Shown here: in pieces, positions 50,488 to 62,625 of the stretch
Layout: each line of letters starts with the position of its first letter
Position numbering within the stretch: the first letter of the stretch is position 1
Assembly: GCA_030693515.1 (NCBI GenBank)
Contig: JAUYAK010000019.1
Location: 62,001-126,000 of the forward strand
Source of the DNA: Opitutaceae bacterium
GTDB lineage: Bacteria; Verrucomicrobiota; Verrucomicrobiia; Opitutales; Opitutaceae
Length of the DNA stretch: 64,000 bases
Direction of reading: 5' to 3'
The notes under the pieces: model-generated
The model's database searches: none
The model's input: the letters and a program-made list of their open reading frames with translations, nothing else
What the model was told of the DNA's origin: nothing
Translations under genes and position numbers: made by a program

Positions 50488-52308
50488 ATGAGAACCCTCT
50501 TCGCCGCAGTCGCCCTCATCGTCTTCATCTCAGGCATCAGCCCCGCAGCCGCCCAAACTCCCTCGACCATCATTGTATATAAGGGATTCGGCTACGAGCA
50601 GGCCTCGGCCACCGAGTTGGTGGTGAAAGACCCCGGGTTCTTGATTAGCGTGGATTTCGCGACGCCAGTTTCAGCCAACACCGTCGTTCAGCTGCGCGGT
50701 CCGACAACCTACACCTTCACGCGCATTTCCGCCCTGAAGTATGAGGTGGGCCGGTCATTCACGGTCGAACAGGTGGCCGACCTCGCGTTGCCCGATGGCA
50801 GCTATACGGTGGCTGTGTCGGGCGGAGGCACCGCGTCCAACACCACGCTTGTCATCACCTCGCGTCCTCGAATTCAGCCCGTGCTGATTACGAATTTCGC
50901 AGAACTGCAGAGCCTGTCCTCCGGCACTTTCAGGGTGGCTTGGGAGGGCATCGCCGGCGCCTTCATCGACGATTTTTTCAGCCTCACTTTCACCCGCAGC
51001 GACCTCCAGATTTTTTCGAGCCCCAATCCCGGGGAGCCCGGCGCGCTGAACGGGCGCTCGACTTTCTTCAACGTAAACAACCTCGCCATCGCCCCGGGCG
51101 AGTCTCTCGAAGGCGGCATCGTTTTTGCCCGCTACACGTTTTCATCCGCCAACAACAACGCGACCACCATCGGAAGCGGCTACGGCTTCTATTCGACGTT
51201 CCCGATCAAGCGCGCCGCGCTCACGCCGCCGGTGATCGCCGCACAGCCGCAGCCGGTCACCGTCGCCGCCGGTTCGACCGCCGTCTTCAATGTCGAGGCC
51301 GCCGGCACCGGCCTCACCTATCAATGGCGCCGCAACGGAGCGCTGATCGCCGGCGCCACCTCCTCCACCTTGATCCTCGGCGAGGTGCAGGCGGCCAGCG
51401 CCGGCGACTACTCGGTGTTCATCAGTAATCCCGCGGGCTCCTTCACGAGCACCAGCGCCGCGCTCACCGTCGCCCCGCCCGGCCCTCCCTCGCGCATCGT
51501 CAACCTCGCCATCCGCACCGCCTCCGGCTCCGGCAGCCAGACGCTGATCGTCGGCTTCGTCGTCGGCGGCGAGGGCACGACCGGGTCCAAACCCCTGCTC
51601 GTCCGCGCCGTGGGTCCGACGCTGGGTGGGTTTGGCGTGCCCGGCGTGCTCGCGGATCCGCGGCTCGAGTTGTTTTCGAACAATGTGCGCATCGCCGAAA
51701 ACGACAACTGGAGTGGCGACACCCAGGTGACTGCCATCGGCAGCGGCGTCGGCGCCTTTGCTTTGAGCTCAAGCACGTCGCGCGATGCCGCGCTCTACGC
51801 GCCGTCGCTGGCCAGCACCTCCTATTCCGCCCAAATCACGGGCGTCGGCGGCGCGACGGGAGTCGTCCTCGCGGAGGTCTACGACGCCACCTCGCCCGGC
51901 ACATTCGACGCCACCACCCCGCGGCTCATCAACGTCTCCGCCCGCTCCAACGTCGGCACTGGCGCCGATGTGCTGATCGCTGGATTTGTCATCGCGGGGC
52001 CGACCGCGCGCACCGTGCTCATCCGCGGACTCGGCCCCAGTCTCACGTCGTTCGGCGTCGCTGGTGCGCTGGCCGATCCGCGCCTCACGCTCTTCGCCGG
52101 ACCGGCCAAAATCTTGGAGAACGACGACTGGGGAGGGAACTCCGCGCTGGCCGCCGTCTTTATGAACGTCGGCGCGTTCGCCCTCCAGTCCGTCTCGCGC
52201 GATGCCGCGCTGCTTGTGACGCTCCCGCCCGGCAACTACTCGGCCCAGCTGAGCGGCGCGAACAGCACCACCGGCGTCGGCTTGGTCGAGGTCTACGAAG
52301 TCCGCTGA
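50488..52308 (+). CDS. Secreted Ig-domain protein with C-terminal tandem uncharacterised domain
   Basis: A 606-residue exported protein (signal cut near PAAAQTP). The N-terminal 240 residues are beta-rich and unrecognised. An Ig-like domain follows at about 246-331 (PQPVTVAAGSTAVFNVEAAG, LTYQWRRNGALIAGAT, SAGDYSVFISN). Two tandem copies of an about 130-residue domain end the protein (335-478 and 479-606). Each runs VNLA/VNVSAR..., (V/I)GF(V/I)(V/I)xG, (L/I)(V/I)R(A/G)(V/L)GP(T/S)L, FGV, LADPRL, ENDxW, VGAFAL, SRDAAL and TGV(V/G)L(A/V)EVY. The same tandem ends the LTD/CotH protein at 59422. It probably acts at the cell surface. The function is unknown. Confidence 0.75.
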   Translation: MRTLFAAVALIVFISGISPAAAQTPSTIIVYKGFGYEQASATELVVKDPGFLISVDFATPVSANTVVQLRGPTTYTFTRISALKYEVGRSFTVEQVADLALPDGSYTVAVSGGGTASNTTLVITSRPRIQPVLITNFAELQSLSSGTFRVAWEGIAGAFIDDFFSLTFTRSDLQIFSSPNPGEPGALNGRSTFFNVNNLAIAPGESLEGGIVFARYTFSSANNNATTIGSGYGFYSTFPIKRAALTPPVIAAQPQPVTVAAGSTAVFNVEAAGTGLTYQWRRNGALIAGATSSTLILGEVQAASAGDYSVFISNPAGSFTSTSAALTVAPPGPPSRIVNLAIRTASGSGSQTLIVGFVVGGEGTTGSKPLLVRAVGPTLGGFGVPGVLADPRLELFSNNVRIAENDNWSGDTQVTAIGSGVGAFALSSSTSRDAALYAPSLASTSYSAQITGVGGATGVVLAEVYDATSPGTFDATTPRLINVSARSNVGTGADVLIAGFVIAGPTARTVLIRGLGPSLTSFGVAGALADPRLTLFAGPAKILENDDWGGNSALAAVFMNVGAFALQSVSRDAALLVTLPPGNYSAQLSGANSTTGVGLVEVYEVR

Positions 52309-52378: not shown

Positions 52379-55138
52379 ATGATCCTCTTCCCCACCTCGT
52401 CCTGGCGCGTCGCGTGCGCGCTCGCTGTCGTCGTCCTCGCCCCGGCCACCGCGATGGCCCAGGGTAAGCAAAAGCAGTCCGAGGCGCCGCCCGCCGCCAA
52501 GCAGGCGCCGCAGCCGACCATCGATCCGCCCCAGGCCTTCATCCCGCCGGGCATGTTCGCGGTGCCCGATGACCTTGAGGTCAAGCTCTGGGCCCGCACG
52601 CCGCTCTTCCGCAATCCGTCCAACATGGACATCGACGCCCAGGGCCGCATCTGGGTCGCCGAGGCCTACAACTACCGCCGCCACGCCGGCAAGGATCCCG
52701 AGGGCGACCGCATCATGATCCTCGAGGACACCGATGGCGACGGCGTCGCGGACAAGAGCAGCGTCTTCGTGCAGGAAAAGGCCCTGCTCGCCCCGCTCGG
52801 CATCTCGGTCATCGACAACAAAATCATCGTCGCCTGCGCGCCCGACCTGATCGTTTACACCGATGTGAACCGCGACGGAAAATTCGACCCGGCCGTGGAC
52901 AAGCGCGAAGTGCTCCTCACCGGCTTCGACGGCCGCAACCACGACCACTCGCTGCACTCCGTCACCTTCGGGCCCGACGGGAAATACTACTTCAACCACG
53001 GCAACGCCGGCGCCCTCTTCACCGACAAATCCGGCCGCACGTTCCGCAATGGCAGCTTCTACGATCCGGCGCGCAGCGGCGGCGGCATCCCCACAAACGA
53101 ACGCCGTCCGCCGGACTACTCCGGCGAGAAGAGCGACGACGGCCACGTCTATGCCGGCGGCACCGCGTTCCGCATGAATCCCGACGGCACGCAGGTCGAG
53201 CCCATCGGCTACAACTTCCGCAACAGCTACGAGCAGACGATCACCTCCTTCGGCGACGTCTTCCACAACGACAACGACGACCCGCCCGCCGCCCGCACCT
53301 CTTTCCTCCAGGAATACGGCAACCTCGGCTTCACCTCCCGCGACGGCAAGCGCACGTGGAACGCCGACCGCCGCCCCGGCCAGACCACTGCGGTCGCCGA
53401 GTGGCGGCAGGACGATCCCGGCGTGATTCCCGCCGGCGATGTCTATGGCAACGGCGCGCCCACCGGCATCGTGTTCTACGAGGGCGACGCCCTCGGCGCC
53501 AAATGGCGCGGCGCCCTGCTCAGCTGCGAGACCTCGCGCAACATCGTCTTCGGCTATTTCCCCAAGGCCGAAGGCGCCGGCTACAAGCTCGACCGCTTCG
53601 CGTTTCTCACGACCAACAAGGAGCAGGATCTCGCCGGCATCGATGGCATGCGCGGCAAGCTCCGTGCCGACGATTTCAAGACGTGGTTCCGCCCCTCCGA
53701 TGTCGCGGTCGGCCCCGATGGCGCCATCTACGTTGCCGATTGGTTTGATCCGCGCACGGGCGGCCACGCCGCGCTCGACAGCAGCTTCGCCGGCGCGATC
53801 TACCGCATTACGCCCAAGGGCAAAAAACTCACCACGCCCAAAATCGACCTGAACACCACCGCCGGCCAGATCGCCGCGCTCAAGAATCCCGCCGTCCACG
53901 TGCGCGCGCTCGGCTTCATGAAGCTCCGCGAGGCGGGCGCCGCCGCCATCCCCGCCGTCTCCGCGCTGCTGAAGGACGAGAATCCCTACGTGCGCGGCCG
54001 CGCCGTGTTTCTCCTCGCCCACCTCGGGCCCCAGGGCCTCGCCCAGACCGAGGCCCAGCTGAAGCATAGCGACGCGATGATGCGCATCGCCGCCTTCCGC
54101 GCCCTGCGCCGCGCCAACCACCGCGTGCTCACGCACGCCCAGGCACTCGTCAACGACTCTTCCGCCGCCGTCCGCCGTGAAGTCGCCATCGCGCTCCGCG
54201 ATGTGGGCCTCGACGGTGCCCGCGAACTCCTCCTCACCCTCGCCAAGGGTTACGACGGCAAGGACCGCGCCTATCTCGAAGCCTGGGGCACGGGCTGCAC
54301 CGGCAAGGAAAAGGAAATCTACGCCGCGCTCGCCAAACAGGCCCCCGGCGCTGACGCCGCCAAGTGGCCTGCCAGCTACGCCAACCTCATCTGGCGCCTC
54401 ACGCCCGTGGGTGCGGAGTCTGCCTTTGCCGCCCGCGCCTCCGCCGCCCTCGCTGAGCCCGAACGCCTCGCGGCCGTGACGGCGCTCGGTTTCATCCCCA
54501 CCAAGGCCTCCGCCTTCGCGCTCCTCGACCTCGCGCAGAAGACCACCGGCATGGTGAAAGCCCACTCCCTGTGGTGGCTCATGAATTACAAGGACCTCCG
54601 CTGGCCGGACGCCGGGATCGACGCGGAGCTCAAGACCCGCGGTCTCTACGATCCCGGCACCGTCTCGATTACGCCGAGCGTCGTCCCCGAGCCGCCCGCC
54701 ACCCAACTCCCCGCCTCCGCCGAGATCGCCAAGCTCAAGGGCGACGCCGCCAAAGGCGCCACCACCGCGCAGGCCTGCCTCCTCTGCCACCGTATCGGCG
54801 ACAAGGGCAACGACTACGGCCCCAGCCTCACCGGCTACGCCAAGGGCCAGACCACCGAGGTCGTGATCACCGCCATCACGAATCCCTCGGCCGACATCGC
54901 GCACGGCTTCGACGGCGTAAACGTCAAACTTAAGGAAGGCGGCGAGGTGCATGGCGTCGTGCTCAGCGCCGGAAATCCCCTCATCATCCAGTCGATGGGC
55001 GGTCTCACCCAGATGATTCCTCCCGCCAAAATCGCGAGCCGCCAGGCGCTCGGCCGCTCTCTCATGCTGAGCGCCGAACAGCTCGGCCTCACCGCGCAGG
55101 ACGTCGCCGACATCACCGCCTACCTGAAGACGCAGTGA
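52379..55138 (+). CDS. PVC-type membrane-bound dehydrogenase with HEAT repeats and cytochrome c
   Basis: A 919-residue exported protein with a signal peptide (VACALAVVVLAPATAMAQG). The propeller occupies about 60-480 (VKLWARTPLFRNPSNMDIDA, GRIWVAEAYNYRRH, DTDGDGVADKSSVFVQ, VGPDGAIYVADWFDP). HEAT-like repeats cover about 490-640. A cytochrome c carries C800-L-L-C-H804 and a probable axial Met in GRSLMLSAEQLG. Compared with the 20236 protein it belongs to a different subgroup (long insert with RNHDHSLHSVTFGPDG, no ThuA). The substrate is unknown. It ends 13 bases ahead of a strong hairpin. Confidence 0.88.
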   Translation: MILFPTSSWRVACALAVVVLAPATAMAQGKQKQSEAPPAAKQAPQPTIDPPQAFIPPGMFAVPDDLEVKLWARTPLFRNPSNMDIDAQGRIWVAEAYNYRRHAGKDPEGDRIMILEDTDGDGVADKSSVFVQEKALLAPLGISVIDNKIIVACAPDLIVYTDVNRDGKFDPAVDKREVLLTGFDGRNHDHSLHSVTFGPDGKYYFNHGNAGALFTDKSGRTFRNGSFYDPARSGGGIPTNERRPPDYSGEKSDDGHVYAGGTAFRMNPDGTQVEPIGYNFRNSYEQTITSFGDVFHNDNDDPPAARTSFLQEYGNLGFTSRDGKRTWNADRRPGQTTAVAEWRQDDPGVIPAGDVYGNGAPTGIVFYEGDALGAKWRGALLSCETSRNIVFGYFPKAEGAGYKLDRFAFLTTNKEQDLAGIDGMRGKLRADDFKTWFRPSDVAVGPDGAIYVADWFDPRTGGHAALDSSFAGAIYRITPKGKKLTTPKIDLNTTAGQIAALKNPAVHVRALGFMKLREAGAAAIPAVSALLKDENPYVRGRAVFLLAHLGPQGLAQTEAQLKHSDAMMRIAAFRALRRANHRVLTHAQALVNDSSAAVRREVAIALRDVGLDGARELLLTLAKGYDGKDRAYLEAWGTGCTGKEKEIYAALAKQAPGADAAKWPASYANLIWRLTPVGAESAFAARASAALAEPERLAAVTALGFIPTKASAFALLDLAQKTTGMVKAHSLWWLMNYKDLRWPDAGIDAELKTRGLYDPGTVSITPSVVPEPPATQLPASAEIAKLKGDAAKGATTAQACLLCHRIGDKGNDYGPSLTGYAKGQTTEVVITAITNPSADIAHGFDGVNVKLKEGGEVHGVVLSAGNPLIIQSMGGLTQMIPPAKIASRQALGRSLMLSAEQLGLTAQDVADITAYLKTQ

Positions 55139-59421: not shown

Positions 59422-62400
59422 ATGGAGCGCACCACGCCTCAGTCCCGCCCGCAACTTGCGCCTCCTCGGGGGCTGCCCCGCGCGCCCGCGCTTGCACTGC
59501 TGCTGCTCGCCCTGCTCGCGCCCGCGCCGGCCCTCCGGGCGGAACCGGTGATCAGCGAATTCATGGCGAGCAACACCGCGACGCTCGCCGATCAGGATCA
59601 GGCGTTTTCCGACTGGATTGAAGTGCATAACCCCGACCCGACGGCGATCAGCCTCGGGGGCTGGTATCTCACCGATACAGCCACGAACAAGACCCGGTGG
59701 CAGTTTCCCGCCGTGGTGCTGCCCGCCGGCGGCTACCTCGTCGTGTTTGCTTCCAACAAGAACCGGCGCGTGGCGGGTGCGGAACTGCACACCAATTTCG
59801 CTCTGGCGGCCGAGGGCGAATACCTCGGCCTGATCAAGCCCGACGGCGTGACCGTCGTGTCCGAATACGCCCCCACCTTTCCACCGCAGAGCAACGACAT
59901 TTCCTACGGGCTTCTGCCGCTGCCTGGCGGCGGCACGACGCCCGCCTATTTCCCCAGCGCCAGCCCGGGTGCCGCCAACATCGCGGCCGGCGCCGTGTCG
60001 CTCGCCGCCACGGTGCGCTTCTCGCGCCCCGCCGGACCGTTTTCCACTCCGTTCCAGCTGACCCTTTCCGGAGCTGGTCCAAGCCAGCACATCCGTTTCG
60101 TGTCGGTGCCTCCGGGCCCGGCGGGCGCCATCGCAGTTGAGCCCACCGAAACCTCCCCCCGCTACGCCGGGCCGCTGACCATCTCCACCAACACGATTCT
60201 ACGCGCCGCGGTTTTTTCCGACGATTTGAAAACCCGCGGTCTCTCGGCCCCGGCCCAGTATTTCGCCCTCCAAGGCACCGGAGCGCGCGCGGTGACCGGC
60301 TTCGCCTCCAAGCTCCCCGTGCTCGTCATCGAGCAGCACGGCTACGGCGGCCTGAACCGCGAGGACCTCTCCCAGCCCGCCTGGCTCCACGGTTTTCCGG
60401 GCGTGGCGCCCGGCGGCGCTTCATTCGGCCCGGAGGCCGAGTTTGTGGCGCCCGTCGCCGTGACGGTGCGGGGTTCCTCCTCGGTCAATTTCCCCAAGAA
60501 AAACTACAACGTCGAAATCCTGAATGATCTGCGCCGGAAGACCGCGCGGCCGCTCTTCGGCTCGCGGCCGTTCGACGAATGGGCGCTCATTGGACCGTGG
60601 CTTTACGACCCCTCTCTCCTCCGCAACAGCTACGTCTATGCCCTGAGCAACCGCATCGGGCGCTGGGCGCCCCGGACCCAACCCGTCGAAGTTTTTCTAA
60701 ACACCGACGGCCTCCCGCTCGACACCTCCGCCTACGTGGGGGTTTACGCCCTGACCGACAAGATCGAGTTCCATCCCGATCGCGTGGCCGCCTCGCGCGT
60801 CTCGACCAGCGCCGCGACCGAGCCGGACATCACCGGCGGCTACCTGTTGAAGATCGATGAACCCGACGCCGACGAGTATGCGTGGACCCCCGAATACGGT
60901 CTGGACATCGACACCCTCTCATCGGTGGTCGTCGCCTCGCCCAAGGCGGATCGCCTCTCGAACGCGCAACGCGCCTACATCCGCGGCTACGTCCAGCAAT
61001 TGGAGAATGCCCTGCACGAGGATCGCGCCAGCGGCTGGCGGACCCGCAAACACCTCAACTACCTCGACCGCCCCTCGTGGATCGACCACCACATCCTGAA
61101 CACCTTCGCGGCCAATCCCGATGCGTTCGAGCGCAGCGCGTTCTTCTACAAGCCCCGCAACGGGAAACTAATCGCCGGCCCGGTCTGGGACTTCGATCGG
61201 GCGCTGGGATCGAGCGAGGACGAACGCTCGTTTCAGACCGACCTGTGGTCGGGCGAAGGCGCCGTGCAGCCGTGGCACTTCGGCTGGTGGGGCGTCATCG
61301 CGACCGATCCGGATTTCCGGCAGGAGTGGATCGACCGCTGGCAGTCACTGCGGCGCGACGCCTTTGCCGATGCGAATCTCACCGCCCTCGCCGATCAACT
61401 CGCCGCGGCCATCGGCCCCGAGGCCGCGGCCCGCGACGCCGTCCGTTGGGCGGATAACGTGAGTTCGTTTGGCGGCACGCATGCCGGCGAGATGGCCCAC
61501 ATCAGGAGCTGGCTCGTGCGCCGCGGCCGCTGGATCGACTCGCAGTTCGTGCCGCCGCCCGGCGTCACGGTGAGCGGCACTCAGCTCATCCTCTCCGCCC
61601 CGCCGGGCACGCAGATCGCCTACACTCTCGATGGTTCGGACCCCCGGGCGGAGCGCGGCGACATCGCGCCCAATGCCACGGTCGTCACGGGCTCCGCCAC
61701 CATCGCAGCTTCGGCCAATCTTCACGCCCGCAGCTACCGGGCCGCGGACCGAGATGCGTTTCCCGGCAGCCCGTGGAGTTCCGTCGTCGGCGGCGTTAAT
61801 TCCACGCCCCTCAGCCCCCCTTCACGGGTCATCAATCTCTCCAGCCGCGCCGTCGTCGGTCAGGGTGAGAACGCCTTGATCATGGGCGTCGTGGTCGCCG
61901 ACTCGCCGCGGAAGACCTATCTCTCCCGCGCCATTGGGCCCACGCTCGCCGCCTTTGGCACCCCGGGGACGGTGCCCGATCCGCAGCTGGCGGTCTTCGG
62001 CTCGGATGGCCGCGAACTCGCCCGCAACCATGGTTGGAGCCTCGGGCCCGACGCCGCGCGCGTCGCGCAATTGGCCCGAACCGTCGGCGCCTTCCCCCTC
62101 CCCGACGGCAGCGCCGATTCCGCCCTCGTGCTTGAGGTGGGCGCCGGCGCCTACAGCCTCCTCGGCACCACGCCGAGCGGCCGGCCTGGCATCGGGCTCG
62201 CCGAACTCTATGAGACCGATGCCACCGGCCGCACGGTGAATATCTCAACGCGCGCGCAAGTCGGCACGAATGACGACGTGCTCATCGGCGGGTTCGTCGT
62301 GGCGGGCGCGGCCCACAAGCGGATGCTGATCCGCGCCATCGGCCCCACGCTGCGCGCCTTCGGGGTGAACAACGCGCTCACCGATCCGGTGCTCACGGTC

Positions 62401-62625
62401 TATTCCGGCGCGTCCGCCATCGCCTCCAACGATCGCTGGGCCGCAGGGCCGCAGGCGGCCGCCGTGACGGCGGCGAGCGAGCGGGTCAACGCCTTTGCCC
62501 TGGCCGCCGACACGGAGGATGCGGTCCTGCTGCTCACCGTCGCGCCGGGCGCCTACACCGCCGAAGTTCGCGGCAAGGGGGGCGCCACCGGTGTCGCGCT
62601 GCTGGAGATCTATGAAGTGCCGTAG
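59422..62625 (+). CDS. Secreted LTD / CotH kinase-like protein with C-terminal tandem uncharacterised domain
   Basis: A 1067-residue exported protein. After a signal peptide (cut near LRAEPV) comes a lamin-tail (LTD) domain at about 42-160 (ISEFMASNTATLADQDQAFS, DWIEVHNPD, ISLGGWYLTD). A CotH-like kinase domain follows at about 330-640 (VRGSSSVNFPKKNYNVE; PFDEWALIGPWLYDPSLLRN; active-site W589-D-F-D592). A chitobiase-type beta segment comes next (IAYTLDGSDPR, near 733). The protein ends with two copies of the same about 130-residue domain found in the 50488 protein (about 801-935 and 937-1067), closing in GVALLEIYEVP. It probably acts at the cell surface as a protein kinase or scaffold. Confidence 0.85.
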   Translation: MERTTPQSRPQLAPPRGLPRAPALALLLLALLAPAPALRAEPVISEFMASNTATLADQDQAFSDWIEVHNPDPTAISLGGWYLTDTATNKTRWQFPAVVLPAGGYLVVFASNKNRRVAGAELHTNFALAAEGEYLGLIKPDGVTVVSEYAPTFPPQSNDISYGLLPLPGGGTTPAYFPSASPGAANIAAGAVSLAATVRFSRPAGPFSTPFQLTLSGAGPSQHIRFVSVPPGPAGAIAVEPTETSPRYAGPLTISTNTILRAAVFSDDLKTRGLSAPAQYFALQGTGARAVTGFASKLPVLVIEQHGYGGLNREDLSQPAWLHGFPGVAPGGASFGPEAEFVAPVAVTVRGSSSVNFPKKNYNVEILNDLRRKTARPLFGSRPFDEWALIGPWLYDPSLLRNSYVYALSNRIGRWAPRTQPVEVFLNTDGLPLDTSAYVGVYALTDKIEFHPDRVAASRVSTSAATEPDITGGYLLKIDEPDADEYAWTPEYGLDIDTLSSVVVASPKADRLSNAQRAYIRGYVQQLENALHEDRASGWRTRKHLNYLDRPSWIDHHILNTFAANPDAFERSAFFYKPRNGKLIAGPVWDFDRALGSSEDERSFQTDLWSGEGAVQPWHFGWWGVIATDPDFRQEWIDRWQSLRRDAFADANLTALADQLAAAIGPEAAARDAVRWADNVSSFGGTHAGEMAHIRSWLVRRGRWIDSQFVPPPGVTVSGTQLILSAPPGTQIAYTLDGSDPRAERGDIAPNATVVTGSATIAASANLHARSYRAADRDAFPGSPWSSVVGGVNSTPLSPPSRVINLSSRAVVGQGENALIMGVVVADSPRKTYLSRAIGPTLAAFGTPGTVPDPQLAVFGSDGRELARNHGWSLGPDAARVAQLARTVGAFPLPDGSADSALVLEVGAGAYSLLGTTPSGRPGIGLAELYETDATGRTVNISTRAQVGTNDDVLIGGFVVAGAAHKRMLIRAIGPTLRAFGVNNALTDPVLTVYSGASAIASNDRWAAGPQAAAVTAASERVNAFALAADTEDAVLLLTVAPGAYTAEVRGKGGATGVALLEIYEVP

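Follow-up and report, generated by a model that had tools for sequence, protein, structure and literature searches.

Two genes that end in the same tandem domain

The window, the whole stretch of 64 000 nucleotides that was analysed, carries two plus-strand genes whose products end in the same pair of domains; both reading frames are open. ORF A (50488–52308, +) codes for 606 aa and combines a signal-peptide-like N-terminus (crude rule), an unassigned region, one immunoglobulin domain (Pfam Ig_3, residues 247–314) and the tandem. Copy 1 of this tandem lies at 51481–51891 (+; E = 1.5e-58 with a profile built from the four window copies; contig C89, 113481–113891) and copy 2, at 51910–52305 (+; E = 4.2e-62; C89, 113910–114305), reaches the stop codon. 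ORF B (59422–62625, +) codes for 1067 aa: a signal-peptide-like N-terminus by the same crude rule, a Lamin Tail Domain (LTD, PF00932; 59539–59859, +; residues 40–146, E = 2.1e-13), Fn3_assoc, a CotH kinase domain (PF08757; 60460–61536, +; residues 347–705, E = 3.4e-43), CHB_HEX_C_1 and the tandem. Its two copies, at 61813–62220 (+; E = 2.1e-62; C89, 123813–124220) and 62221–62622 (+; E = 4.9e-64; C89, 124221–124622), again extend to the stop codon. Window coordinates of the copies are contig coordinates minus an offset of 62 000. Between the two genes, at 52379–55138, there is an ORF of 919 aa with a CxxCH motif near its C-terminus, read by eye as a site of c-type haem binding.

The four copies, each of about 135 residues, share 31 invariant positions in their alignment and are 38–47 per cent identical, with E values of 1.9e-23 to 2.8e-40 for all six pairs in BLASTP; none of 100 shuffled versions of one copy scored above 40 bits. 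These values bear out an earlier note on this DNA, which had described a two-copy domain closing both proteins. The same note held the N-terminal parts to be unrelated, and the comparison of the regions before the tandem agrees, the best BLASTP match having an E value of 0.53 over eight residues. A Pfam scan of both proteins found the Ig, LTD, Fn3_assoc, CotH and CHB_HEX_C_1 domains and placed no model on the tandem.

Abundance, placement and hosts of the module

The four-copy profile gave 123 matches at E ≤ 0.001 in the 6.65 Mb genome (150 of 176 first-look candidates scored), a number far above chance. These matches group into 69 clusters, namely 54 pairs and 15 singles but no triples, and are spread over 68 ORFs; one ORF bears a pair at both termini. 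Pairing is not obligatory, given the single-copy hosts. Five single matches lie on short ORFs or fragments of 70–201 aa (C25_172850p, C51_43643p, C52_144704p, C59_9113m and C76_75481p; short ORFs L138, L148, L152, L158 and L168, in this order), which are possibly decayed genes or assembly breaks.

The last copy ends at most four residues from the stop codon in 57 of the 69 clusters, and a signal-peptide-like start (crude rule) was found for 62; the module is concentrated at the C-termini of apparently exported proteins. Six of the other 12 clusters are N-terminal tandems placed directly behind the signal peptide: four are followed by CHRD and DUF1800, one by TonB_C and one belongs to the protein that has a second pair at its C-terminus. 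Of the remaining six, two extend 11 and 13 residues past the last copy, one is a fragment with 16 further residues, and one has a tail of 47; inspection by eye takes the other two to the stop codon, which the profile match had fallen short of. The module is a terminal one and is not confined to C-termini. Of its earlier description as a reusable C-terminal module, the reuse on unrelated, exported-looking bodies, mostly at their C-termini, stands, and the restriction to one end falls with the six N-terminal tandems. All seven CHRD-bearing DUF1800 proteins that were scanned (L111, L112, L117, L119, L080, L099 and L107) have the pair at the N-terminus, so that the end preference seems tied to the host family. 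The TonB_C host (L115:3939–4292) is a protein of 408 aa in which a signal-peptide-like start is followed by the pair and then by TonB_C (PF03544, E = 6.4e-14), an odd arrangement for an exported protein.

Grouped at a coverage of at least 50 per cent, the 63 non-tandem parts give 32 groups; the largest has 24 members, which to judge from Pfam are likely linked by Ig repeats. Pfam families found in these parts (overlapping) are Ig_3 in 27, LTD in six, CotH in five, and NHL, PQQ_2 and CHRD in four each; DUF5122, DUF1800 and S8 are further bodies among the tandem hosts. A simple gene picker retained 54 tandem ORFs, and 52 of these pass the signal-peptide rule; among the remaining candidate ORFs at these loci, 164 of 360 pass it too. 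The rule is crude and permissive, with 46 per cent of the controls passing. A lipobox-like motif is rare (3 of 62).

Similar proteins were compared in 79 loci from named genomes of other species, which represent the best 80 of 569 confirmed matches to the window copies and are not a random sample; their titles name Opitutaceae, Opitutus, Opitutae/Opitutia, Verrucomicrobiaceae or Verrucomicrobia bacteria. Among these best 80 of 569 matches, 104 of the 108 domain ORFs have two copies and four have one. Where the 3′ end is closed (103 ORFs of the same sample), 96 stop at most two residues past the last copy, two run on for 8 and 80 residues, and in five the pair lies close to the N-terminus. Six N-terminal hosts from elsewhere, one of them cut by a contig end and hence outside the 103 closed ORFs, were scanned: three are CHRD–DUF1800 proteins, and the others are a pectate lyase, a metallophosphatase and a BNR-type propeller. 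Hosts in other genomes also include a GDSL lipase and proteases.

Within the family of the window (Opitutaceae), the domain was found in 72 of 120 genomes and 34 of 49 genera. At least nine matches are present in 59 genomes, one to seven in 13 and none in 48 (at most 34 tandem and 64 PEP-CTERM matches scored per genome). The domain is patchy in the family and often massively expanded; an ‘all or nothing’ distribution was considered and ruled out by the 13 genomes of 120 with one to seven matches. The profile search across Verrucomicrobiota that the earlier note had suggested gave 22 of 387 genomes: 18 from the same family, two from the same order (one weak) and two from other families of the class. 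A second profile found 21 of 387 genomes and did not repeat a weak match in genome G134 (E = 7.2e-4). Both surveys scored at most ten candidates per genome and may miss divergent members. In the two genomes from other families of the class (G013 and G257) the same domain is paired in eight of nine proteins. Plasmids and phages searched with tblastn gave no match at E ≤ 0.01.

Predicted fold and sequence relatives

Copy 2 of ORF A (window 51904–52305) was predicted by AlphaFold as a beta sandwich or jelly roll with two short helices (pLDDT 95.8, pTM 0.89), a confident model of the kind that the earlier note had proposed to obtain. The pair of ORF A was modelled equally well (pLDDT 95.8, pTM 0.91), and these values suggest a defined relative orientation of the two domains. 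The nearest solved folds of one copy are 5sv5 (a collagenase PPC domain), the ColG CBD 3B, the N-terminal domain of DeCLIC, Tk-SP and LipL32. In Foldseek the top match is 5sv5 (E = 8.9e-5), with several CBDs also matched. In VIA the copy reaches Z = 9.6 with 3afg (rmsd 3.6, 95 aligned) and Z = 8.7 with 1nqj (rmsd 2.9, 92 aligned); PPC and CBD chains have Z values of 7.9–8.7, and some other sandwiches among the matches score as high. Identity to the ColG and 5sv5 domains is only 12–17 per cent. For the pair as a whole, the top Foldseek match is ColG s3a–s3b (5iku) with E = 7e-9 and a TM of just 0.27, and VIA gave Z ≥ 8 with none. The modelled relation to the PPC/collagen-binding fold is borderline, and a shared fold shows no function by itself. 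In a viral structure library the best match (E = 2.3e-6) is an uncharacterised phage protein.

The likeness to PPC and collagen-binding domains would consist in the predicted jelly-roll fold, with its borderline match, in the terminal position on exported proteins and in the presence of two such domains in ColG (PMC6168687); collagenase segments containing PPC bind collagen (PMC6168687). The differences are that the tandem also occurs at N-termini, has many more copies per genome and has no PPC sequence match: PF04151 is absent among the Pfam families at E ≤ 1 for both window proteins and 115 copies of the genome. These fold neighbours, together with hosts such as the pectate lyase and, elsewhere, the GDSL lipase and proteases, would fit a substrate-binding accessory domain, similar to a CBM or a collagen-binding domain, that brings enzymes to an external polymer. 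We consider this improbable, since many hosts (Ig proteins, propellers, CotH, PhoD, DUF1800 and TonB_C) have no evident common substrate and one sequence type serves all hosts, with a mean copy identity of 42–46 per cent.

The earlier note could match the tandem to no named family, and sequence searches gave no characterised domain either, be it in Pfam, NCBIfam or a profile search of the PDB. The last of these gave best E values of 0.31 and 0.14 for two profiles. Pfam gave nothing consistent for the 115 copies and nine proteins of other families, the best candidate being DUF3281 (1 of 115 copies, E = 0.0089), and no SLH family was among the Pfam matches of the 115 copies. The sole NCBIfam family matched is NF038127 (DVUA0089/FDP family). 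Window copy 2 scores 23.2 bits with this model, under the cut-off of 29, and the window tandem scanned as a pair gave no match, unlike copy 2 alone; at E ≤ 1 the model matches 53 of the 115 copies of the genome. Its cut-off is passed by seven of the eight proteins scanned from G013 and G257 (best E = 1.3e-12). Across the phylum, 33 of 288 genomes match NF038127, 15 of them over the cut-off, compared with 1 of 14 controls (Deinobacterium chartae). By sequence comparison, the module looks like a diverged offshoot of a larger group that is itself uncharacterised. Literature searches found no tested function for NF038127 and no account of the domain pair; the namesake, DVUA0089, appears only within a regulon, as one target of a regulator whose label reads exopolysaccharide and biofilm synthesis (PMC4641369). 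The pair is probably an uncharacterised PPC-like variant that stands out by its scale, its pairing and its placement at either end.

Inheritance, sorting systems and possible role

The nearest relative of copy 2 is the copy 2 of another protein in 43 of 48 cases, and that of copy 1 is another copy 1 in 30 of 48. The distance matrices of the two copies are correlated (r = 0.443; 0 of 2000 permutations as high). Both observations indicate that the pair mostly spreads as a unit. A tree also clusters the copies by position (for copy 1, 20 changes where shuffling gives 37.8 on average); it is based on few columns and is poorly resolved (6 starred of 117 inner branches).

Among 25 CotH loci, two copies are present in 18 of 18 at an identity of at least 43 per cent; of the distant loci, one closed ORF (L209, 28 per cent identity) lacks the domain and six run off the locus. 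Thirty PhoD loci were held out of a longer match list, and 29 of them were readable. One copy is present in all eight PhoD relatives at an identity of at least 57 per cent, and 21 of 21 PhoD-like proteins at 42 per cent or less end directly without the domain; the PhoD groups compared, two or more in number, may not be orthologous. Copy number is nearly fixed, and close relatives of a host all have the same number. Since close PhoD relatives have the copy and distant ones end without it, the domain behaves as a suffix, as has been described for sorting signals such as PEP-CTERM (PMC3237569). The CotH-type host gene and the PhoD-like phosphatase gene form a conserved gene pair, adjoining and divergent in ten places (G000:C37:3352–7223; G160:C137; G406:C33 and C22; G401:C103; G414:C60 and C54; G450:C40; G432:C31; G421:C112). 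The PhoD protein has a single domain copy in all seven of these pairs for which its end was read.

The compact, terminal and confidently predicted fold might also be that of a cap for folding or stability outside the cell, possibly removed in maturation and with no binding task; truncation of a PPC domain is reported to affect the stability and activity of a keratinase (PMC4906391). Such a role is quite improbable in our view: it leaves the near-fixed pairing and the either-end placement on unrelated bodies unexplained, and the distant PhoD-like proteins do without the domain.

A further alternative is a sorting function. The tandem might be an export signal read by an unrecognised outer-membrane translocon, as the type IX system reads its CTD. 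The terminal position on many unrelated exported proteins, the suffix behaviour on PhoD and the patchy, expanded distribution are all consistent with this. The type IX secretion signal is C-terminal, and what speaks most against an export signal tied to the C-terminus is the occurrence of the tandem at either end; the tandem further differs from the type IX CTD in that Por_Secre_tail matches only 1 of 115 copies (E = 0.2). No partner gene was found among SprA, exosortase and GspD-type secretins in the 120 genomes. SprA, the type IX marker, was detected in 0 of 120, in a search whose control was silent too. Exosortase is present in 113 of 120 (E ≤ 0.001). GspD-type secretins match in 120 of 120 at E ≤ 0.001, with just four over the cut-off, so that other secretins are possibly meant; they make a general outer-membrane route plausible. 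Neither exosortase nor GspD-type secretins track the tandem, and the genomes without exosortase are 5 of the 59 rich in the tandem, 1 of the 48 that lack it and 1 of the 13 in between (Fisher p = 0.22, rich versus free). A PPC-type domain is reported not to be needed for secretion of the protease MCP-03 (PMC4906391). PEP-CTERM and tandem counts are negatively associated by genome (Spearman −0.30, p = 0.001, uncorrected for ancestry), with a median PEP-CTERM count of 3 in the 59 tandem-rich genomes and 12.5 in the 48 without the tandem. This could mean an alternative sorting route, but the association is not significant by genus (rho = −0.22, p = 0.13). With the N-terminal tandems in view, we regard an export signal as rather unlikely.

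We favour, with a probability of roughly 45 per cent, the reading of the tandem as an extracellular docking module that retains proteins at the cell surface or in the matrix. The host proteins would use Sec to pass the inner membrane and a general route for the rest of their way out. Once folded, the pair would attach to a single partner shared by all hosts, either at the cell surface or within the exopolysaccharide matrix, and thereby keep enzymes, Ig proteins and propeller proteins near the cell; this partner would probably be a glycan or some other component of the matrix. This reading is suggested by the presence of one module on many unrelated, exported-looking bodies (32 groups). A docking module would also be expected to occur at either terminus, and the tandem does so, in one protein at the two together. 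The nearly fixed copy number and the suffix behaviour on PhoD point in the same direction. So does the borderline proximity of the predicted fold to matrix-binding PPC domains, together with the position of DVUA0089 under the exopolysaccharide/biofilm regulator (PMC4641369). The 13 genomes of 120 with just one to seven matches count against retention, as they indicate that a shared system of dozens of proteins is not required. Type IX CTDs and SLH anchors are examples of one module common to dozens of surface proteins, and the tandem, on its dozens of putative surface proteins, is like them in this respect.

In this genome alone, 68 ORFs carry one unnamed domain, paired or single, and most of these ORFs look exported. 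Should the domain serve for docking, the set of proteins that these bacteria display on their surface could be read from sequence, and the pair would provide a handle for finding the receptor as well as a display tag usable at either end. A new Pfam or NCBIfam model would then be justified, annotating many protein tails that are now without a model.

A more specific version of the docking reading is that of a two-lobed tag, working at either end and independently of exosortase, that would hold some 60 unrelated exported proteins on one surface or matrix receptor and partly replace PEP-CTERM sorting. We regard it as unlikely. The tandem resembles the PEP-CTERM/exosortase system as a suffix on many unrelated exported proteins of the same bacteria, and differs in lacking the motif, transmembrane helix and basic tail: in ORFs A and B alike the closing element is the last strand of copy 2, as judged from sequence and, for ORF A, also from the predicted secondary structure. 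None of the 21 tandem-free PhoD-like proteins has a PEP-CTERM tail by a simple pattern, which argues against a simple replacement of PEP-CTERM by the tandem. The genome of the window itself has three exosortase matches and one PEP-CTERM match. Of the seven exosortase-free genomes, one has no tandem match, one has three and five (G310, G351, G411, G422 and G428; completeness 94–97%) have 21–34, a further difference from PEP-CTERM. These five suggest that tandem proteins need no exosortase, unless the enzyme was missed. PEP-CTERM matches number zero or one in each of these five genomes.
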